NCBI GenBank assembly: GCA_019359115.1
Contig: JAHHHW010000086.1
Coordinates: forward strand, 1-62,750
Origin: Pelatocladus maniniholoensis HA4357-MV3
GTDB lineage: Bacteria > Cyanobacteriota > Cyanobacteriia > Cyanobacteriales > Nostocaceae
Length of the DNA: 62,750 bases
Direction: 5' to 3'
Within the stretch, counting starts at the first letter, position 1. The number at the start of each line of letters is the position of its first letter. Below, one piece after another: positions 16,622 through 55,640 of the stretch. Below the pieces are notes generated by a model, which did no database searches, was not told the origin of the DNA, and saw nothing but the letters and a program-made list of their open reading frames with translations. A program made the position numbers and the translations under genes.

Positions 16622-16728
16622 CGCTTACGAACATATTGCGGAAGCTGCCCTCAATCAATATGCTGTACAGGGAGAACTTCGGTTTTTGGGTCATAGTGGA
16701 AACGTGACCTTTTATGTGGAAACTTGAT
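16609..16728 (+). pseudogene. N-terminal fragment of an APH/choline-kinase-type phosphotransferase
   Basis: From ATG 16609 the frame encodes MIEINAYEHIAEAAL...LRFLGHSGNVTFYVET and then stops inside a tandem repeat. FLGHSxNxTFxVE is the nucleotide-loop start of aminoglycoside phosphotransferase/homoserine-kinase-type enzymes of about 330 residues. Only about 39 residues remain. The rest was lost, apparently at the repeat array that starts at 16721. It overlaps the end of the acetyltransferase gene, suggesting a former operon. Confidence 0.65.
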
Positions 16729-16880
16729 TTACAACTCAGAAACTTGATTTACAACTCAGAAACTTAATTTACAACTCAGAAACTTGATTTACAACTCAGA
16801 AACTTGATTTACAACTCAGAAACTTGATTTACAACTCAGAAATTTAATTTACGACTCAGAAACTTGATTTACAACTCAGA
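16721..16880. repeat. Tandem array, 8 copies of a 20-bp unit
   Basis: The unit AACTTGATTTACAACTCAGA occurs eight times without spacers, with single substitutions in copies 3 and 7. A partial ninth unit (AACT) follows. It marks the break of the phosphotransferase fragment. There are no spacers, so it is not a CRISPR array. Similar arrays of 21-bp units with other sequences occur at about 33538 and 53487. Confidence 0.95.
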
Positions 16881-17068
16881 AACTATTTATAGCGTTTTTC
16901 AGGTAAATAAAGTAAACGTGTATGGGCGTAGACATCCCTACAATCCTATAAATATTTGGGATTAATAAAGGAATCCTTATGTGTAAGGATTTCTATTTGT
17001 GTATATCGGTGGTCGATTTCTAAAACATAAATATTGTCGTGTTTTCAACTCATATTAGACGTAACTCT
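16881..17068. other. Decayed intergenic DNA with one hairpin
   Basis: AATCCTTA-tgtg-TAAGGATT near 16972-16993 forms a neat stem and could end a transcript. I see no gene otherwise. Confidence 0.4.
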
Positions 17069-33532: not shown

Positions 33533-33537
33533 AATGT

Positions 33538-33650
33538 TCTAACGACACAACTTAGTGTTGTAACGACACAACTTAGTGTCCTAACGACAGCAACTTGTGT
33601 CCTAACGACAGCAACTTGTGTCCTAACGACAGCAACTTGTGTCCTAACGA
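33538..33650. repeat. Tandem array, about 5 copies of a 21-bp unit
   Basis: The units CCTAACGACAGCAACTTGTG and variants with CACAACTTAGTG are joined head to tail without spacers. It directly abuts the MITE at 33411-33532. A frame through it encodes VVRTQVA repeats on the minus strand, which I take as a chance translation. Confidence 0.88.
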
Positions 33651-44659: not shown

Positions 44660-46360
44660 CTATCTTACTCGTTCCAAAGTCTGATAAACATTTTTAACAG
44701 CCAGCCAATTACTAGCAATAGGCATTCTCCAACCAGTACCAAAAGCGCGATCTGTAATTTTTAATCCTGGGGGTGCTTGTCGCCGCTTGAATTCTGCCCT
44801 AGCTACCATCTTGATCACTTTATCAACAATGGCTACATCGTGTCCAGCGCTGACAATTTGGGCGGGTGACTGGTGATCTTGAATCAGGCGTTGCAAGATA
44901 TCGTCAAGGATATCGTAGGGTGGTAGAGAATCTTGGTCAACCTGACCAGGTTTAAGTTCAGCGCTGGGTGCTTTGGTAAGGACGTTGTGAGGAATAATTT
45001 TGCTGTTGCGGTTTAACCAGAGACATAGTGCATAAATGCGGGTTTTGGGAACATCGGCTATGACTGCTAAACCACCATTCATATCACCGTAAAGAGTGCA
45101 GTAACCAACAGCCATTTCTGATTTGTTACCTGTTGAGAGGAGAAGATGACCAAATTTATTCGAGATAGCCATCAATAAGTTACCCCGAATTCGAGATTGA
45201 ATATTTTCTTCTGCTAGTCCAAACTCATGATCAGCAAATAAATCTGCAAAGGTTTTGTCATATACTTGCATTAAATCACCGATGGGCAATGTATTAGTTT
45301 TAATACCAAGGTTCGCTGCCAATGCCAAAGCATCAGTGATGGAATGCTTAGAACTGTGGGGAGAAGGCATGAGAACACCGAGGACATTTTCTTTACCAAG
45401 TGCTGCTGTTGCGATCGCAGCCACAACAGAAGAATCAATTCCACCACTTAAACCCAGAACTACTTTATTAAAACCACATTTACGGACATAATCTCGCACA
45501 CCTAAAACTAAAGCTTGCCAGATTTCTTCTTCCTCACATTCACAATTAGGCGCAATCAAACCTAACTTTAAATCCCGTGCTTCTTGATCAAATTCAATAA
45601 TTGATAAATCAGTTTCAAATCCACGCGATCGACAAATAATTTCACCCTGACGATTTAACGCAAAACTTCTACCATCAAAAATTAAATCATCATTACCACC
45701 CACTTGGTTAGCATAAATAATCGGTTGGCGAAAACGTACTGCACTGTGACTTAGCATGGCTTCGCGAAACCTTTGTTTGCTGAGGGTGTAAGGTGAAGCG
45801 GACAAATTCACAATCAAATCCACACCCAAAATTGCTAAATCAGCAATCGGGTTGACAGTGTAACTACGTTTGCCCCAAAATTCTTCATCGTTCCACAAAT
45901 CTTCGCAAACAGTGACACCAATATTGATATTATCGAGAGTGAAATAATTCGCTTGCAAACCTGGTTCAAAATAGCGGTGTTCGTCAAAGACATCATAACT
46001 AGGTAAAAGGCGCTTGTAAAAAATTTGTTTGACCTTACCCGCTTCCAACCAAGCAATGCTATTAAATAAACTTTTACCACCAGTTTTTTTTGCTTGGAAA
46101 TTTTCTTCTACAGTTCCGACTAATACTGCTAATTTTGGTGGTAAATCTCTAGCTAATTGTCGCAAGGTAATACCCATTGCTTCAATAAAACTGGGATTTA
46201 ATAATAAATCTCGTGGAGGATAGCCACACAAAGACAGTTCCGGTGTTAACAATAAACGCACGCCTTTTGCTACTGCTTGTTGTGCAGCCTCAAGGATTTT
46301 TTGAGCATTTTTTGGTAAATCACCAATGGTAGGATTGAGTTGAGCGATCGCAATTTTCAT
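44660..46360 (-). CDS. nadE: Glutamine-dependent NAD+ synthetase
   Basis: This is a 566-residue two-domain enzyme that converts nicotinate adenine dinucleotide to NAD+. The N-terminal carbon-nitrogen hydrolase domain opens MKIAIAQLNPTIGD, with LLLTPELSLCGYPP (Glu), FYKRLLPSYDVFDE (Lys) and IGVTVCEDLWND (Cys), the glutaminase triad. The C-terminal synthase has the P-loop VLGLSGGIDSSVVA (about 292), YCTLYGDMNGGLAVIADVPKT and KAPSAELKPGQ. I chose the third-residue-in ATG at 46360 because the domain starts there. It is last in a NAD gene cluster, 70 bp after the nrtR-like gene. Confidence 0.96.
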   Translation of the reverse strand: MKIAIAQLNPTIGDLPKNAQKILEAAQQAVAKGVRLLLTPELSLCGYPPRDLLLNPSFIEAMGITLRQLARDLPPKLAVLVGTVEENFQAKKTGGKSLFNSIAWLEAGKVKQIFYKRLLPSYDVFDEHRYFEPGLQANYFTLDNINIGVTVCEDLWNDEEFWGKRSYTVNPIADLAILGVDLIVNLSASPYTLSKQRFREAMLSHSAVRFRQPIIYANQVGGNDDLIFDGRSFALNRQGEIICRSRGFETDLSIIEFDQEARDLKLGLIAPNCECEEEEIWQALVLGVRDYVRKCGFNKVVLGLSGGIDSSVVAAIATAALGKENVLGVLMPSPHSSKHSITDALALAANLGIKTNTLPIGDLMQVYDKTFADLFADHEFGLAEENIQSRIRGNLLMAISNKFGHLLLSTGNKSEMAVGYCTLYGDMNGGLAVIADVPKTRIYALCLWLNRNSKIIPHNVLTKAPSAELKPGQVDQDSLPPYDILDDILQRLIQDHQSPAQIVSAGHDVAIVDKVIKMVARAEFKRRQAPPGLKITDRAFGTGWRMPIASNWLAVKNVYQTLERVR

Positions 46361-46429
46361 AATAGTCAATGGTCATTAGTCATTAGTCATTGGTTATTGG
46401 TTTAGAAGTCAAAAATTAAACCTTCTGCC

Positions 46430-47176
46430 TTAAATAAAAACCAATGGTTTATCCTTAAAAGGGGCAAATGCTTCTGCATCAAATCGATATAAACTAGCTG
46501 GACGCCCTGCACCTCGCGATACTTTAATCCCTGTATCACATAAAAAGCCTAACTTGAGTAAACGCGCCCGAAAATTAGAATAATCGGAAAAATTCTCTCC
46601 TAAAACGGTAGTATACAACTGATATAAATCATTTAAAGTAAAGGTTTCTGGCAAAACTTCAAAAGCGACCGGACTGTACTCCAATTTATTTTTTAAACGT
46701 CTGTGTCCGTATGCCAAAATTTCATTATGGTCAAAGGCTAATTGTGGGACTCGTTTGACTGGATACCAAGCGATACCAGCAACTTTGTCAGCAATTAATT
46801 CGGCTTCTTCATATCGCACTAAAGCAAAGTAACTGACACTGAGATAACGCACCCCATAACTATCAGTTGCTTCTCTTGGGTCACGGCTAGGTCCACCAAA
46901 ACTATATAATTGCTCTAAATAAAGATTCTTGACCTTGATTTTTTCAGCTAGAATGCGATAGGCTGCGTCTTCTAACGATTCGCCTCGACGTACTAAAGTA
47001 CCTGGAAGACCCCAATAATTTACATAGGGTTCCTGTTGTCGCATGATTAATAGTACTAGGAGTCGATTTTGAGCAGTATCTACTGAAAAAATTACATTGT
47101 CAACACCAACTTTGAAATCAGCCAAAGGTTGTTGATTTAGCGTATCTGCAAGCTTTTTCTGGATGCGTCCTGGCAT
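46430..47176 (-). CDS. nrtR: NrtR-like regulator: degenerate Nudix domain plus winged helix
   Basis: This is a 248-residue protein. Residues about 20-150 form a Nudix-like domain (VGVDNVIFSVD...NYWGLPGTLVRRGESLEDAAYRIL). Its Nudix box has lost key acids: the expected RE-x-x-EE reads R-I-L-A-E-K, so hydrolysis is doubtful. The C-terminal part FTLNDLYQLYTTVLGENFSDYSNFRARLLKLGFL...GAGRPASLYRF is the winged helix of NrtR, which represses NAD genes and responds to ADP-ribose. It overlaps nadD by 40 bp and lies between nadD and nadE, so it probably regulates its own cluster. The alternative is a plain Nudix hydrolase. Confidence 0.82.
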   Translation of the reverse strand: MPGRIQKKLADTLNQQPLADFKVGVDNVIFSVDTAQNRLLVLLIMRQQEPYVNYWGLPGTLVRRGESLEDAAYRILAEKIKVKNLYLEQLYSFGGPSRDPREATDSYGVRYLSVSYFALVRYEEAELIADKVAGIAWYPVKRVPQLAFDHNEILAYGHRRLKNKLEYSPVAFEVLPETFTLNDLYQLYTTVLGENFSDYSNFRARLLKLGFLCDTGIKVSRGAGRPASLYRFDAEAFAPFKDKPLVFI

Positions 47177-47736
47177 TTGTACAAATGCTGTTGATTAATA
47201 TAGTCAATTACAGGGGGCGTGAGAGCTTCGGAATCTCCACTGTTACGATAAGCTGTAGAGGATACATCTGGAGCATGTAACTCAGCGATCGCTATTTTTG
47301 CTCCGAGATCTTCCACTGCCTGTAAATTGGATTGATCTATGATATATCCCGGTCGTGGTATAACCAAAAGTTGGACTTGGTGTAATAAATCTTCAACTCG
47401 ATACCAGCGTGGTAGTTGAGAAAGTAAATCTGAACCTATCACCAAAGTAAATTCTGTTTCTGTTCCCCAACGCTGTTTGGCTTTATCCAAAGTTTCTAAG
47501 GTTCTGAAACTGCTGAGTTCTTGTTCCAGACTAATATTATGGTGTGGTAAATATATATCATTTATGAGTAGATGTAACATTGCTACCCGATGCTGCAAAA
47601 GTGTTTGATGCGATTTAAAAGGATTATCAGCCGCCCAAATGACTACACGATCATAATGCTGTGACAACCATTTAATAATCGCTTGATGTCCAGCCGTTGG
47701 TGGATCAGCACTAGTTCCAAATAAAGCTATTTTCAT
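47137..47736 (-). CDS. nadD: Nicotinate-nucleotide adenylyltransferase
   Basis: This is a 199-residue enzyme of the nucleotidyltransferase fold that converts nicotinate mononucleotide plus ATP to nicotinate adenine dinucleotide. The start MKIALFGTSADPPTAGHQAII holds the GxFDPxHxGH-type motif (here with T for the first His), followed by WAADNPFKSH, FTLVIGSDLLSQLPRWYRVEDLL and the C-terminal DVSSTAYR, the SxTxxR motif. It follows pncB by 45 bp and overlaps nrtR by 40 bp. The T-for-H change in the first motif is a variation seen in some cyanobacterial relatives, but activity is not shown. Confidence 0.9.
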   Translation of the reverse strand: MKIALFGTSADPPTAGHQAIIKWLSQHYDRVVIWAADNPFKSHQTLLQHRVAMLHLLINDIYLPHHNISLEQELSSFRTLETLDKAKQRWGTETEFTLVIGSDLLSQLPRWYRVEDLLHQVQLLVIPRPGYIIDQSNLQAVEDLGAKIAIAELHAPDVSSTAYRNSGDSEALTPPVIDYINQQHLYKCQDASRKSLQIR

Positions 47737-47781
47737 TTTTTGGTAATTGGTAATTGATAATTGGTAATTGCTTATTGATTA

Positions 47782-49161
47782 CTAACCACTAACCAATGCT
47801 GGTTTTTTCTTGGTTTCTTCTGTCAATCTATGTAATTTTTCAGATAATATCATTTGTATTGATATGGGATTTTCTAAATATCGAGTTTGTTCGGGTAAAC
47901 TTGCTACGGAGGCGGCGGTACGGTGACGAATTGTTGCTAAGTTTTCTGGTGATTGCATCCGTTTTCCTGCTTGCATGAATAGTTGCAATAAAGGTAGTTC
48001 TCCCAAATTAGTTTCATCTGCTAATCCCAAACAATCTATTTTCACTTTACCTGCTACGGAAGAACGAAAAACTTGTTTGCGTCCCGGATAAGTCATCTTA
48101 CCACTCGATTCTTTCATTACCGGAATGCCATTAATTTCTACTAATTTATAGACTCCATTTACAGGTTTTCCTGTTACGAGTTTGGTTCCCACGCCATAGC
48201 TATCAATCTCAGCACCTGCATTTTTTAAAGATAGAATTTCTTGCTCATCTAAGTCACCACTCGCAACTATTGATACACCTGGTAGAAGCGATCGCACTTT
48301 TTTTGATAATCCTACTAAATCACCAGAGTCTAATCTCACACCATTCAATTTCATTTTTCCAGAGTTGATTTTAAGAGCTAATCGTTCAGCAGCAGCAATG
48401 GTATCGTAAGTATCAATTAACAAGGTTGCACCTGGAAAATATTCTTGAAATGCAGCGAAAGCTTGATCCTCGCTACCTTCGGTTGCTGTTAGTGCCATTA
48501 TCAAAGCGTGCGCCATCGTACCACTTGGCTTCTCGCCCAGTTGTAGCGCTGTCAACACATTTGATGTAGCATCAAAACCAGCTGCTAATGCTGCCCTTGC
48601 TGCCCACAACGCGCCTTGGGGACTAAACGCTCGTCGGGTACCAAATTCCAGCAAATTTGCTCGTTCACCTGCAACATCACGCATTCTAGCAGCCCGTGTG
48701 GCAATTAATGTCTGGTAGTTGAGGGTATTAAGTAGATAAGTTTCCACCAGTTGTGCTTGCCATAAAGGTGCTTCTACCCGTAAAAGTGGTTGATTGGCAA
48801 ACACTGCTGTACCTTCTGGTACTGCCCATACATCCCCGCTAAAACTTCCTGATTCTAGCAGTGACCAAAAGCGTTGTGGTGCATGAGCAAAAATTCCCGT
48901 CGAACGCAAAGCTTCTATATGAGTGGAAGTAAAGCAAAATTTTTCTAAATATTCCAACGCCTGAGCTAGCCCCATGGCGATTAAATAGCCAAAATCCTCT
49001 GGTAATTTTCTAACAGATAACTCAAAGCTTGCCCGTTGTTGTTCTACGCCTTCACCAGCGTAACAAGCTGCCATTGTCAGCTGATAAAGGTCTGTCAGTA
49101 GGCTGTAATCTTCTGCACGCGGAATTAATTCCTGGTTCAATACCCCTGGGTAACACGTCAT
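47782..49161 (-). CDS. pncB: Nicotinate phosphoribosyltransferase
   Basis: This is a 459-residue salvage enzyme that joins nicotinate to PRPP to give nicotinate mononucleotide. It begins with SLLTDLYQLTMAACYAGEG, the family start. ANLLEFGTRRAFSPQGALWAARAALAAGFDATSNV, AHALIMAL, LIDTYDT, GVRLDSGDLVGLSKKVR and VASGDLDEQEI are the substrate-binding blocks, followed by DSYGVGTKLVTGKPVNGVYKLVEI. It is the first gene of a NAD cluster. A GGGGGG stretch and a HIP1 site separate the cluster leader from the ATG, and a perfect inverted repeat lies 36-58 bp upstream. Confidence 0.95.
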   Translation of the reverse strand: MTCYPGVLNQELIPRAEDYSLLTDLYQLTMAACYAGEGVEQQRASFELSVRKLPEDFGYLIAMGLAQALEYLEKFCFTSTHIEALRSTGIFAHAPQRFWSLLESGSFSGDVWAVPEGTAVFANQPLLRVEAPLWQAQLVETYLLNTLNYQTLIATRAARMRDVAGERANLLEFGTRRAFSPQGALWAARAALAAGFDATSNVLTALQLGEKPSGTMAHALIMALTATEGSEDQAFAAFQEYFPGATLLIDTYDTIAAAERLALKINSGKMKLNGVRLDSGDLVGLSKKVRSLLPGVSIVASGDLDEQEILSLKNAGAEIDSYGVGTKLVTGKPVNGVYKLVEINGIPVMKESSGKMTYPGRKQVFRSSVAGKVKIDCLGLADETNLGELPLLQLFMQAGKRMQSPENLATIRHRTAASVASLPEQTRYLENPISIQMILSEKLHRLTEETKKKPALVSG

Positions 49162-49991: not shown

Positions 49992-50146
49992 TTGTTCATG
50001 TTGGCGCAGCCTGCCCAAAGGGCTAATGATTTAGAAATGCTATATAGGAATCTTATTTGATTTTTGCGAAGCTAGGTAAACTTTCTGTTCCCTGTTCCCT
50101 GTGTTCACGATTAAATTTATAAACCAAACCGGATTTCTATAAAAAA

Positions 50147-50172
50147 CCCGGCTTTTCAGTAAACCGGGTTAA
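50147..50172 (-). terminator. Terminator after the RPI-repeat gene
   Basis: AACCCGG and CCGGGTT form a stem about 32 bp past the stop of the repeat-protein gene on the minus strand, followed by T-rich DNA. Confidence 0.65.
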
Positions 50173-50203: not shown

Positions 50204-50662
50204 CTAATCCAGATAACCCATCAAAAATTCGGAATCATCAACAGTATTTGATGCTACTGGACGATTACCCATTACAGAATAGGTTTCAGAAACTATCAAA
50301 GAACTAGAAGCAATAGGACGAATTCCAGACAAATTCATTGTATCAACTACATGCATTGTGTTTGCGCCAATGGGACGCAAACCCATAATGTTAATTGTTT
50401 CTACAACTTCCAAGCTACTTGTGCCAATGGGACGTATACCAGCAATCGAGACTGTTTCTGCTACTTGCAAATCGCTAGCAGCAATGGGACGTGTTCCAGC
50501 AATGGCAAGTGTATCAGTTACTTCTAATTTATCGGACGAGTTTGCTTGCTCTGTATTTGAGTTTTCAAGTTTATTATTTTCAACTTCCATTGTAGTTTCC
50601 CCCTTTAATTTGGCACGCTTTTGGCTAGGACTTACTGCCTTACCATTGCTGCTGACAGCCAT
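50204..50662 (-). CDS. Protein of five 19-residue RPI repeats, unknown function
   Basis: This is a 152-residue protein. A hydrophilic start (SPSQKRAKLKGETTMEVENNKLENSN) leads to five exact-length repeats at residues 46-64, 65-83, 84-102, 103-121 and 122-140. The consensus is L-x-V-x-[ED]-T-x-x-[IL]-x-G-x-RP[IV]-x-[AT]-[SN]-x. The tail is DDSEFLMGYLD. There is no cysteine, signal peptide or membrane span. The alternating V/ET/I and G-RPI pattern suggests short beta strands stacked as a solenoid. GAGG lies about 9 nt before the ATG. I do not recognise a named domain, and the neighbours give no hint. Confidence 0.75.
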   Translation of the reverse strand: MAVSSNGKAVSPSQKRAKLKGETTMEVENNKLENSNTEQANSSDKLEVTDTLAIAGTRPIAASDLQVAETVSIAGIRPIGTSSLEVVETINIMGLRPIGANTMHVVDTMNLSGIRPIASSSLIVSETYSVMGNRPVASNTVDDSEFLMGYLD

Positions 50663-50842
50663 AAACTAATACCTCTAGATTGTTAAGGATTTTTTACAAA
50701 AATTCAACCTAAGTGAAGTTTTTTCTATATATCTCAGTTTAACTTTAAAAAATATTGTATATCTATAAGGTTGTTTAAAAACTACACATAAGTAAAAATC
50801 AATAGGTTAGGGATAGGGGATAGGAGATCAGGAATCGGTGTT
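50663..50842. other. Upstream region of the RPI-repeat gene
   Basis: It presumably carries its promoter on the minus strand. AT-rich, with no named site visible. Confidence 0.35.
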
Positions 50843-51088: not shown

Positions 51089-53086
51089 ATGACAAAATTT
51101 TGTCTTCAAGCACCCTTCAGTCCAACCGGCGATCAGCCACAAGCGATCGCACAGCTAGTTAGTAGTATCCAAAATCACAATCATTATCAGACATTACTAG
51201 GCGCAACCGGAACCGGGAAGACATTTACAGTCGCATCAGTGATTGAAAAGGTCGGTAAACCGACATTGGTACTGGCGCACAATAAAACCCTCGCAGCACA
51301 GCTTTGTAATGAGTTGCGAGAATTCTTTCCTAACAACGCAGTTGAGTACTTTGTTAGTTACTACGACTATTATCAACCAGAAGCGTACATTCCTGTTACC
51401 GATACTTATATTGAAAAAACAGCCTCTATCAACGATGAGATAGATATGTTGCGACACTCAGCAACGCGATCGCTCTTTGAACGTCGTGATGTGATCGTTG
51501 TTGCGTCGATTAGCTGTATCTATGGTTTGGGAATTCCCTCAGAATATCTCAAAGCTGCGATTCCCTTTCAAGTAGGAATGGAAGTTAATCAAAGACAAAT
51601 TTTGCGAGATTTAGCCTCAGTTCAATATAGCCGTAATGATATAGAAATGGGACGGGGACGGTTTCGCGTCCGGGGTGATGTCCTCGAAATTGGCCCAGCA
51701 TACGAAGATCGGATTATTCGCATCGAGTTCTTCGGTGATGAAGTTGACGCCATTCGTTACGTTGATCCGGTGACGGGTGAAATTCTCCAGAGTTTACAAG
51801 CAGTGAACCTCTATCCTGCGCGTCACTTTGTGACACCAGAAGAAAGATTAGAAGAAGCATGTGATGCGATCGCTCAAGAATTAAAAGAACGTAAAGCAGA
51901 GTTAGAATCAGCCGGGAAATTACTCGAAGCGCAAAGAATAGATCAGCGTACCCGCTATGATTTGGAAATGTTGCGCGAAGTCGGTTATTCCAACGGTGTG
52001 GAAAACTATTCTCGTCACCTTGCAGGAAGACAAGCTGGTGAACCACCAGAATGTTTAATTGATTATTTCCCCAAAGATTGGTTGTTAGTTATTGATGAAT
52101 CTCACGTTACCGTACCTCAAATTCGGGGTATGTATAATGGCGATCAAGCTAGAAAAAAAGTCTTGATTGAGCATGGTTTTCGCTTACCTAGCGCTGCGGA
52201 TAACCGACCTTTAAAAGCAGAAGAATTTTGGTCAAAAGTTAACCAGTGTGTTTTTGTTTCTGCGACGCCAGGAAATTGGGAATTAGAAATTTCCGAGGGA
52301 CATATAGCCGAGCAAATAATTCGACCAACTGGCGTTCTTGATCCAGAAATTATTGTGCGTCCTACAGAAGGACAAATTGATGATTTATTGGGTGAAATTA
52401 AAGACCGCGTAGACCGTAATGAACGAGTCTTAATTACGACTTTAACTAAACGCATGGCAGAAGATTTAACCGATTATCTGCAAGAAAATAGTATTCGGGT
52501 GCGGTATTTGCACTCTGAAATTAACTCGATTGAAAGAATAGAAATTATCCAAAACTTGCGCGACGCTAATTTTGATGTGTTGGTTGGTGTCAACTTGTTA
52601 CGGGAAGGTTTGGATTTACCAGAAGTTTCTCTAGTTGCAATTTTAGATGCAGACAAAGAAGGTTTTTTACGTGCAGAACGTTCCTTAATTCAAACTATCG
52701 GGAGAGCAGCACGTCACGTTCGAGGACAAGCGATTATGTATGCAGATAATCTCACCGATAGCATGATTAAAGCCATTGATGAAACCGAACGCCGTCGGGG
52801 TATTCAAATGGCACATAACAAGATGCACGGAATTACACCGCAGCCAATCGTGAAGAAATCTAGTAATGCAATCTTGTCTTTTTTGGAAGTTTCTCGAAGA
52901 TTAAATTCTCAAGAAATAGAAACAGTTGATCAACATATAAATGAACTACCGTTAGAAAATATTCCACAGTTGATCACACAACTGGAAGCACAAATGAAAG
53001 AAGCGGCGAAGAAACTAGAATTTGAGGAGGCGGCGAAGTTACGGGATAAGATTAAGCATCTGCGAGATAAATTGGTGGGACGTTAA
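51089..53086 (+). CDS. uvrB: Excinuclease ABC subunit B
   Basis: This is a 665-residue DNA repair helicase-like protein of nucleotide excision repair. Walker [13 protein letters not shown] (about residues 38-49), the damage-gripping beta-hairpin [14 protein letters not shown] (about 89-102), LVIDESHVT (Walker B-like DE), the helicase motifs [33 protein letters not shown] and QTIGRAARH, and the C-terminal UVR/UvrC-binding helix [18 protein letters not shown] are all present. It loads onto UvrA-detected lesions and recruits UvrC. The length is normal and the gene is monocistronic. Confidence 0.97.
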
Positions 53087-53486: not shown

Positions 53487-53654
53487 GTGAATGCATCGGC
53501 TTACATTGTGAATGCATCAGCTTACATTGTGAATGCATCGGCTTACATTGTGAATGCATCGGCTTACATTGTGAATGCATCGGCTTACATTGTGAATGCA
53601 TCGGCTTACATTATGAATGTATCGACTTACATTGTGAATGCATCGACCTACATT
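53487..53654. repeat. Tandem array, 8 copies of a 21-bp unit
   Basis: GTGAATGCATCGGCTTACATT is repeated eight times with few substitutions and no spacers, then a partial ninth copy follows. In one frame it reads as NASAYIV repeats with an ATG at each unit. I take it as noncoding because of the absence of a ribosome-binding site and of a conserved C-terminus. Confidence 0.92.
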
Positions 53655-53708
53655 GTGAATGCAGCCGTCTGCACAAGTTATTTAACAACATCTTCTATTG
53701 ACAAAGCC

Positions 53709-53747: not shown

Positions 53748-55640
53748 TCAGGTGATATTAATAATAGACGCAGACAAATTATCTGGTAAAACTTTACGTT
53801 TTTCAATTATGCTTTCTGTTTCCGAATCATTATAATTACTTGTGCTAGTGCTGTTATCACCAATTACACTGTTCTTGTAGTCATGCCAAAATTGCGTCCA
53901 TGCAGATGAGTTTGGCAAGGTATTGTTATGATTCTCATTTGTGGAATTGGGATTACTAGCAGAAGTAACAATATCCCTATTTATATAGCTACGACTCCAA
54001 GTAGAAGTAATATTATCAAAACTAGAAATAGCACTCATGTTAGTGTCATAACTTAAGCTATGAGTTTTGTTTTCAGTTATAGAAGTACTACTCTCGCTAT
54101 AGTTTGCAGCTTGCGTTGTGGTATTTCCTGATGTTTCTGCTAGGATTTGACGTATTTGAGCATCACTTAGGTTGGGGTTAGCACTCAGCATCAAAGCAAC
54201 TACACCCGCGACATGGGGAGCTGCCATTGATGTGCCACTATACAAGGCATACTCGTTACCTGGAAGTGTAGAATAGACATTGACTCCGGGTGCTGTGACG
54301 TAAGTAAGTTGATTTGCTCCCGCACGGTTAGAGAAGTCTGCAATATTTTTATTTTGATCTACCGCACCAACCGCAATTCCATATTTGTCTGCATAACGAG
54401 CAGGATAGGCTGGTTGTGAACCACCATCGTTACCAGCTGCCATAACCACAATAACACCTTTGTTGCTAGCATATTCAATTGCTTTTTGCAGTGTATCGTT
54501 AAAACGTCCACCACCCAAACTCAAGTTAATTACATCAGCACCATTATCTACAGCGTAGTAAATTCCACTAGCGATCGTACTATTAGAACCTGAGCCTTCG
54601 TCATCTAAAACTTTCACTGGCATAATCTTAGAATCATAGGCAATACCAGTGACACCATAGCCATTGTTCACTCCAGCAATAGTACCAGAGACGTGAGTAC
54701 CATGACCATAGACATCTAAAGTACTGTTGTTGTTGCCGTCAAAATTCCAACCGTAGTAATCATCAATATAACCATTGCCATCATCATCTTTGCCGTTACC
54801 AGCAATTTCTTTGCTATTTGTCCAAATATTAGAACTCAAGTCTTGGTGATTGTAGTCTACTCCGGTATCTAAAACAGCCACAACCACGCCTTTACCTGTA
54901 TATCCCTGCGCCCAAGTTTCTGGTGCTTTTACCAAATCAGCTCCCCAGTTGTTTCCACCCAAGTCAGGAACATCAGCAAAGGTATTTTGATTGGTAGCTT
55001 TAGCCACTGCTGCGGAAGCATTAATTAAGCCATAACCAGAAGTAGAATTATATCCTCCACTTGCTGTGTTGGTAATAGTAATTTCCCGTGCTAAAACGTT
55101 ATTTGTATTACTAATTTCTAGTACATTATCTAAAGCATCGGCTCTGTATAATATGTAGTAGTTTCCGGGCGCAAGATTACTATCTATACTCACATTTTGA
55201 GATTGAGAAGTAGAACTACCAGATCCAAGACTACCAAGCCAGTTCCAACCTAAAAGAGAGTCATCGCTACTAATATTTTTGTCTTTAGAAATATAAAAAT
55301 CTGTATAGTTAAATCCAGCACTATTTTTACCTTTATTTTTTACTTGATAAGAAACTTGAATAGTGCTACCTGCATTTGCCACACTAGGAGCAAATGCATT
55401 TTGTATTACTAAGTCTACTGCGGTTGCTTGAGATGATGCGGAATTTTTTGATTTACTATTTTTTCGTCGCTGATCACTAACATCTGATTCTAGAGTATTT
55501 TCAGTTGTTTGAAAGCTACTACGATTACTGTAATGCAAATAATAATCATCTTGAGAACTGAAATCATCTGCTGAGTATTTAGGAGTAATATTTAGCCCGT
55601 GTTCATCAAACAAGTTTTGACTATTACTTTGATTGGGCAT
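53748..55640 (-). CDS. Subtilisin-like (S8) serine protease with N-terminal CARDB-like domain
   Basis: This is a 630-residue protein. Residues about 75-190 form a CARDB-type beta-domain (VDLVIQNAFAPSVANAGSTIQVSYQVKNKGKN...), common in extracellular adhesins. The S8 catalytic domain has Asp in VVAVLDTGVDYNHQD (about 257), His in YGHGTHVSGTIAG (about 312) and Ser in YSGTSMAAPHVAGVVALML (about 467). The C-terminal about 120 residues are Ser/Asn-rich. No classical signal peptide is seen; an RTX-type or other type I export is possible. The next gene upstream on the same strand is a calpain-like protease, about 290 bp away. Confidence 0.93.
   Translation of the reverse strand: MPNQSNSQNLFDEHGLNITPKYSADDFSSQDDYYLHYSNRSSFQTTENTLESDVSDQRRKNSKSKNSASSQATAVDLVIQNAFAPSVANAGSTIQVSYQVKNKGKNSAGFNYTDFYISKDKNISSDDSLLGWNWLGSLGSGSSTSQSQNVSIDSNLAPGNYYILYRADALDNVLEISNTNNVLAREITITNTASGGYNSTSGYGLINASAAVAKATNQNTFADVPDLGGNNWGADLVKAPETWAQGYTGKGVVVAVLDTGVDYNHQDLSSNIWTNSKEIAGNGKDDDGNGYIDDYYGWNFDGNNNSTLDVYGHGTHVSGTIAGVNNGYGVTGIAYDSKIMPVKVLDDEGSGSNSTIASGIYYAVDNGADVINLSLGGGRFNDTLQKAIEYASNKGVIVVMAAGNDGGSQPAYPARYADKYGIAVGAVDQNKNIADFSNRAGANQLTYVTAPGVNVYSTLPGNEYALYSGTSMAAPHVAGVVALMLSANPNLSDAQIRQILAETSGNTTTQAANYSESSTSITENKTHSLSYDTNMSAISSFDNITSTWSRSYINRDIVTSASNPNSTNENHNNTLPNSSAWTQFWHDYKNSVIGDNSTSTSNYNDSETESIIEKRKVLPDNLSASIINIT

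Follow-up and report, generated by a model that had tools for sequence, protein, structure and literature searches.

The RPI-repeat gene

The window analysed here is a stretch of 62,750 bp from the cyanobacterium Pelatocladus maniniholoensis HA4357-MV3 (positions 1 to 62,750 of contig JAHHHW010000086.1, assembly GCA_019359115.1). On its reverse strand, at 50204..50662, a gene with an ATG start encodes a cysteine-free protein of 152 amino acids, here called the RPI-repeat protein. An original prediction, made from the letters of the window, had given coordinates, strand and composition of this gene correctly and had described residues 46-140 as five uninterrupted 19-residue units. The genome contains a single convincing copy of the gene; the next match has an E value of 0.006 and carries five stop codons.

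The five units follow each other head-to-tail on the reverse strand: unit 1 (LEVTDTLAIAGTRPIAASD, residues 46-64, 50471..50527), unit 2 (LQVAETVSIAGIRPIGTSS, residues 65-83, 50414..50470), unit 3 (LEVVETINIMGLRPIGANT, residues 84-102, 50357..50413), unit 4 (MHVVDTMNLSGIRPIASSS, residues 103-121, 50300..50356), and unit 5 (LIVSETYSVMGNRPVASNT, residues 122-140, 50243..50299). They are preceded by a polar N-terminal tail (residues 1-45, 50528..50662 on the same strand) with 7 K/R and 6 D/E, for which a full-length AlphaFold2 run gave block means of 39-50 in the predicted local distance difference test (pLDDT). The protein closes with a C-terminal tail, VDDSEFLMGYLD (residues 141-152, 50207..50242, reverse strand), ending LMGYLD. 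This 12-residue tail has the lowest mean column entropy among the six segments in a 77-row alignment, a feature which the first reading of the DNA had missed.

The five-unit description held up. The mean pairwise identity between the units is 8.8 of 19 residues, whereas the same 95 residues, shuffled 20,000 times, yielded a mean of 1.39 and a maximum of 3.2. The DNA of any two units is identical at 28-39 of 57 bases (18-29 differing), and Tandem Repeats Finder, applied to the window, did not list the five-unit array among its reported repeats. Both results argue for an old, selected repeat and not for recent slippage. When synonymous and non-synonymous change between the repeats was compared, as had been proposed, the mean proportions of differing sites within the window gene were 0.60 for synonymous (pS) and 0.35 for non-synonymous sites (pN).

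Between genomes, 15 pairs of the Fischerella group had pN/pS ratios of 0.25 (N-terminal tail), 0.15 (units), and 0.16 (C-terminal tail); 21 Nostoc-type pairs gave 0.34, 0.27, and 0.21, respectively. The three comparisons closest to the window show the opposite order (0.20, 0.22, and 0.33), these values resting on few changes. The ratios indicate purifying selection on the RPI-repeat protein. The earlier proposal that selection holds the repeat is borne out by the divergence of the units at the DNA level, by the low between-genome ratios of the units, and by a register that is largely kept across the family.

Anatomy of the family

For a comparison across relatives 225 records (the window and 224 loci) were collected and five were left out (L098-L102). 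The remaining 220 yielded 220 matching open frames and 210 non-redundant proteins. From 445 units of 88 proteins the unit consensus is L-x-[VI]-x-[ED]-T-[ILVY]-x-[ILV]-x-G-x-R-P-[IV]-x-x-[SN]-x. Positions 1, 3, 7, 9, and 15 are hydrophobic in 76-99% of the units, and position 5, the likely acidic mate of the arginine, is E or D in only 59% of them.

Arginine and proline are invariant in units 2-5 of all 75 aligned proteins and in unit 1 of all 68 that have it. This invariance is partly conditional, since the units were located and the alignment rows chosen by RP; an independent check is that only two of 812 RP-to-RP intervals span a unit without its arginine (38 residues in L006 and 35 in L087). 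The spacing is exactly 19 residues in 699 of the 812 intervals and lies between 16 and 20 in 802.

The number of repeats, which was to be counted per strain, varies from protein to protein. Raw counts of RP[IVMLT] in the 210 proteins were 0 in two, 2 in one, 3 in 11, 4 in 47, 5 in 103, 6 in 42, 7 in three, and 9 in one. Counts of 0-2 come from decay (L103) or from the way in which start codons were trimmed (L120 and L104, the latter also interrupted), and a chance RP in the N-terminal tail inflates the count by one in six proteins, including the three with 7. After correction three units are found in 11 proteins, four in 48, five in 104, six in 43, and nine in one, so that most proteins have 4-6.

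The chain end is equally regular. It matches [LMI]MG[FY][LIMV]D in 186 of 210 proteins, the final residue is D in 207 of 210, and in 180 of 208 the last arginine stands exactly 19 residues from the end. We considered whether the C-terminal hexapeptide might be a shared sorting tag. This was rejected, as a degenerate DNA pattern for LMG[FY]-x-D followed by a stop has one match genome-wide, at the RPI-repeat gene itself; the pattern is a strict one and does not speak for looser tags.

In 54 full-length rows the same unit is identical at 9.3-11.5 of 19 residues across genomes, in contrast to 5.6-8.7 for different units within one protein. Judged by these alignments, the units keep separate, position-specific identities across species and genera.

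The N-terminal tails vary in length and sequence, with a median of 54 residues and more than 100 residues in 14 of 207 proteins. Their net charge lies between -4 and +4 in 181 of 207, is at least +5 in nine, and is -5 or lower in 17. In L078 the tail extends over about 320 residues; it is of low complexity and rich in Lys and Ala, with 66 K/R against 15 D/E. No 19-residue segment above 1.6 on the Kyte-Doolittle scale, the mark of a membrane-like segment, was present in any of the 208 proteins tested.

Two kinds of deviating members were observed. At the locus L080 the family has two genes, spaced by about 1-2 kb. In the product of the longer one, proline-rich spacers of 27 and 49 residues isolate two GNRPIASN motifs, which implies that the RP motif can stand alone. 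A paralogous subfamily with [IV]DG-x-RP units (L004, L005, L006, L064, L085, and L179), here termed IDG-type, occurs on plasmids and in some genomes; it reaches up to nine units (L179) and has tails such as -DYID, -DFID, and -GYMD.

Distribution

The absence of the repeat from all relatives, which would have spoken against the original prediction, did not occur. Relatives were found in 4 of 4 sampled genomes of the genus, in 345 of 388 of the order (single-protein search), in 297 of 388 of the class (profile A1), and in 99 of 292 of the phylum; these samples overlap. All 99 matching phylum genomes belong to this same class; 173 of the genomes without a match are not itemised, so that the sampling of other classes is uncounted. 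The closest named relative is that of Fischerella sp. PCC 9431 with 93% identity, and all 19 returned loci were cyanobacterial. A second search with profile A4 of 21 of the 43 order genomes that had given no match (20 listed ones and G195) rescued none, so these absences are probably real. No match was found in the listed genomes of the families f34, f49, and f32.

A phage origin was rejected, as tblastn gave 0 matches in 50,697 phage records. Mobile spread was likewise rejected: only 9 of 72,556 plasmid records contain relatives, every one below 60% identity, and the neighbouring genes agree merely within groups. In eight of these nine records there is also a match to an IDG-type paralogue. 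By annotation, unaligned, L005, L006, and L102 share one run of hypothetical genes in size and position, L004 and L100 have a pentapeptide-repeat gene upstream, and L101 is unannotated. One plasmid copy, in Nostoc sp. C057 (L003:5976-6599), has a stop after about three units and tail-like pieces in a later frame and is apparently broken.

The genus g115, which presumably includes nitrogen-fixing diatom symbionts, contains three genomes without an intact PsaA/PsaB match. Of these, G195 lacks the RPI-repeat gene, G185 has a stop within it, and in G233 it is altered, with two Arg-to-Cys changes and a lost tail. G172 of the same genus, with full PsaA/PsaB, matches strongly (E 1.1e-41). The gene is also missing from six genomes whose PsaA/PsaB are full (G145, G066, G119, G161, G391, and G406), and reduced genomes lose many genes; for both reasons the link to photosynthesis is weak. 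Loss or decay in the genomes without intact PsaA/PsaB, together with absence from several that have them intact, weakly suggests that many photosynthetic cyanobacteria benefit from the protein and that photosynthesis can do without it. The distribution as a whole fits something used by many, not all, of them.

Predicted structure and database searches

With 75 in-register sequences AlphaFold2 predicted two strands per unit (residues 3-8 and 12-16 and their repeats) with fair local confidence, at a pLDDT of 74. The predicted template modelling score (pTM) was 0.34, and the overall arrangement and the last seven residues are of low confidence; the full-length run reached a pLDDT of 46. A Foldseek search of the predicted model against the PDB returned no similar fold. 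In a coupling analysis aimed at distinguishing a solenoid from separate hairpins the in-register diagonal was the strongest between-unit diagonal, with a mean z of 1.42 for adjacent units, and this signal was not distance-dependent.

The window protein had no match in Pfam or NCBIfam up to an E value of 10. Against PDB sequences its best match was at chance level (E 0.61), and a profile search of the same sequences gave nothing below E 0.33. Among 33 members, Pfam matches were scattered and weak (best 0.01), and the NCBIfam model AIDA-I (NF033176) matched five weakly, with a best E value of 5e-4. For 75 members no Pfam family matched more than three (best E 0.003), and two PHROGs matched one member each (best 0.0018). 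The absence of a named domain thus stands for the libraries searched, and no match to a characterised domain was found in them.

A Synechocystis 6803 copy might be sll1355, a guess from gene order which we do not use as evidence. PMC7853294 places sll1355 among the late-growth genes; this is not evidence for the RPI-repeat protein either. A literature search recognised no paper on the protein. It may be among the cyanobacterial signature proteins that PMC2823733 lists by locus tag, although it could not be matched to one of these tags. We conclude that this is an overlooked, widespread cyanobacterial family without description in the libraries and literature searched.

Gene neighborhood

Just 3' of the RPI-repeat gene a consensus scan found a terminator-like hairpin followed by a T run (50145..50170, reverse strand). 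On the other side, 120 nt before the ATG, lies a block of 14 bases, TTTACTTATGTGTA (50783..50796, reverse strand). It occurs once in the window and shows at most one mismatch in eight informative aligned relatives (L010-L015, L018, and L022) from several Nostocales genera; the L030 row of this alignment is uninformative, as it covers the wrong side of its gene. The block is a candidate promoter or operator and thus a possible regulatory site, judged by its conservation.

The divergent neighbor of the RPI-repeat gene is uvrB (51089..53086, forward strand), separated from it by 426 bp. A survey of 47 loci, with about 2-6 kb fetched per side and less at contig ends, found uvrB divergently upstream in 18, spread over eight families and in the same orientation in all 18. 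The arrangement is present in 7 of 7 loci of the window and its close relatives and in 11 of 40 others (families f2, f8, f12, f18, f21, f33, and f52), two of these 11 having uvrB about 2 kb off. Two adjacent proteins belong to the same block in 12 and 11 of the 47 loci. In L067 (5819-6860) they have 144 residues, lipoprotein-like by eye, and 171 residues, and neither L067 copy has a Pfam match up to E 1e-4. At other loci, judged by eye, the RPI-repeat gene adjoins pyrB (L060), pyrD (L081), or menD (L078, L079, and L090). The link to uvrB may or may not involve a common function; an old gene-order block is enough to account for it.

About 0.55 kb downstream of the RPI-repeat stop codon lies a gene for a CsbD-like stress protein. 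It is accompanied in the window by a run of genes for nicotinamide adenine dinucleotide (NAD) metabolism on the reverse strand (44660-49161), namely NAD synthase, a NUDIX protein with NrtR-type winged helix, a cytidylyltransferase-like protein (nadD-type by position), and nicotinate phosphoribosyltransferase. Beyond uvrB a subtilase gene is found at 53748-55640. Right after uvrB, at 53487-53663, there is a 21-bp tandem repeat of 8.4 copies with 94% match, which can also be read as a short repetitive open reading frame (NASAYIV). Two more short tandem arrays lie at 16719-16884 (20 bp, 8.3 copies) and 33535-33650 (21 bp, 5.5 copies).

Possible function of the RPI-repeat protein

We tentatively favor the reading that the RPI-repeat protein is a soluble, cyanobacteria-specific multivalent adaptor, although we rate it at somewhat below an even chance. 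Each unit would form a short pair of beta strands and display G-x-R-P-[IV]; the docking sites so formed would be equivalent, each taking a single copy of the same partner. The peptide -LMG[FY][LI]D at the C terminus, with its free carboxyl end, would serve as a separate anchor, docking to a second site or partner, and the avidity of several units would cluster or position the partner. The repeat core with its short end tail suggests such a string of equivalent docking sites for a postulated partner. The invariant Arg-Pro, the variable number of units, the free-standing motifs of L080, and the near-constant C-terminal peptide make a multivalent adaptor the simplest reading. A unit number that varies between lineages is as expected for valency. 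A purely structural hydrophobic core would not call for the same charged residue in all units, and the likely acidic mate of this arginine is less constant.

Several points weigh against this. The docking partner is so far a postulate, and the hydrophobic positions of the unit suit a folded beta array no less than they suit exposed motifs. The low pTM may stem from a shallow alignment and not from real flexibility. Free-standing motifs were seen in a single protein, L080, and the 113 of 812 intervals that differ from 19 (six of them due to the chance RP in the N-terminal tail) are compatible with an adaptor or a solenoid.

In a wider form, which we regard as unlikely, the adaptor would be a widespread cell organiser. 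It would act as a thread with a valency that can be tuned. Every Arg-Pro unit would bind a single copy of the same complex, located in the cytosol or at the thylakoid surface, and the C-terminal hexapeptide would tether the assembly elsewhere. The unit number (3-9) would be set by lineage, and the IDG-type paralogues, some of them on plasmids, would share the same grammar. A protein kept in most of the sampled order and class genomes, with a strict repeat grammar and a near-constant tail, is found outside the curated families searched. Should it prove to be a multivalent organiser, cyanobacterial cells would have in common an assembly, its partner, that has gone unrecognised.

The main rival to the adaptor is a rigid beta-solenoid, or a beta filament that self-assembles, with the role of a structural rod or surface; each 19-residue unit would form one coil, the coils would stack in register, and the tail would cap the end. 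This rival is somewhat unlikely in our view. The strict 19-residue register, the alternating hydrophobic positions, the two predicted strands per unit, the weak AIDA-I matches, and the in-register coupling diagonal all point to it. The beta-solenoid scaffold of the original prediction therefore stood in part: a beta-rich unit of two strands is predicted, whereas the low pTM, the negative Foldseek search, the low pLDDT of the full-length run, and couplings without distance dependence neither establish nor refute a stacked fold.

Another soluble role without a defined partner, for instance a chaperone-like or stress-protective one, is improbable. The nearby CsbD-like gene and the low-complexity N-terminal tail would suit it. 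Chaperone-like and stress-protective proteins, however, rarely keep an exact repeat register, a near-invariant motif such as the Arg-Pro here, and an exact C-terminal peptide.

Quite improbable, too, is a DNA-repair or nucleoid-associated factor acting with UvrB, with a basic N-terminal tail on DNA and the units or the end tail on UvrB or another repair protein. The conserved divergent position of uvrB and some long Lys/Ala-rich N-terminal tails, such as that of L078, speak for it. Within the stretches fetched, however, uvrB was not found in 29 of the 47 loci, and most N-terminal tails are near neutral. The two further genes sharing the block make ancestral gene order a sufficient explanation. 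UvrB is moreover reported from all cyanobacteria tested in PMC5101192, whereas the RPI-repeat protein is absent from many.

A multi-core precursor of a ribosomally synthesized and post-translationally modified peptide with one product per unit, the second suggestion of the original prediction, is highly improbable and was rejected on gene context and conservation: tandem similar units after a variable leader-like N-terminal tail and the subtilase gene beyond uvrB would suit it, but the window neighbors are the NAD genes, CsbD, uvrB, and, farther off, that subtilase, no maturation or export genes were recognised adjoining the gene in the window or, by eye, in 14 listed loci, the chain end is as conserved as the units, the units keep position-specific identities across genera, and the family is distributed class-wide in most sampled genomes.

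Comparison with known systems

Beta-solenoids such as pentapeptide-repeat proteins, curli, and bactofilins show a regular hydrophobic alternation and short turns as in the RPI-repeat units, and the coil length of bactofilin and curli is similar to the 19-residue unit. Regular strands in each repeat, as expected of a beta-solenoid, are present in the AlphaFold2 prediction. Unlike these proteins, the family has none of their models among its Pfam matches, and the predicted model has no Foldseek match.

The AIDA-I autotransporter adhesin (NF033176), the model with weak matches in five of 33 members, resembles the family in its 19-residue, beta-rich repeats. AIDA-I is about ten times larger, and 152 residues leave no room for a beta-barrel like its own. 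In contrast to AIDA-I with its signal peptide and beta-barrel, the window protein has neither an NCBIfam match within the E-value limit used nor a hydrophobic, membrane-like segment.

With respect to the adaptor reading, the closest likeness is to CsoS2 of alpha-carboxysomes and to the EPYC1-type Rubisco linkers, which combine repeated short binding modules with a flexible N-terminal part and a conserved C-terminal end and work in the manner of a thread that offers several equal docking sites. No CsoS2/EPYC1-type model was among the Pfam and NCBIfam matches of the family members, the presence of a CsoS2 model in these libraries being unchecked. Among the genomes listed, the family is missing from those of f34, which we take to be marine picocyanobacteria with alpha-carboxysomes, but equally from those of f49 and f32, and the likeness to the Rubisco linkers is an analogy only. 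Compared by description and not by sequence, repeat length and motif differ; what the RPI-repeat protein shares with these linkers is the arrangement of several similar short modules in one chain.
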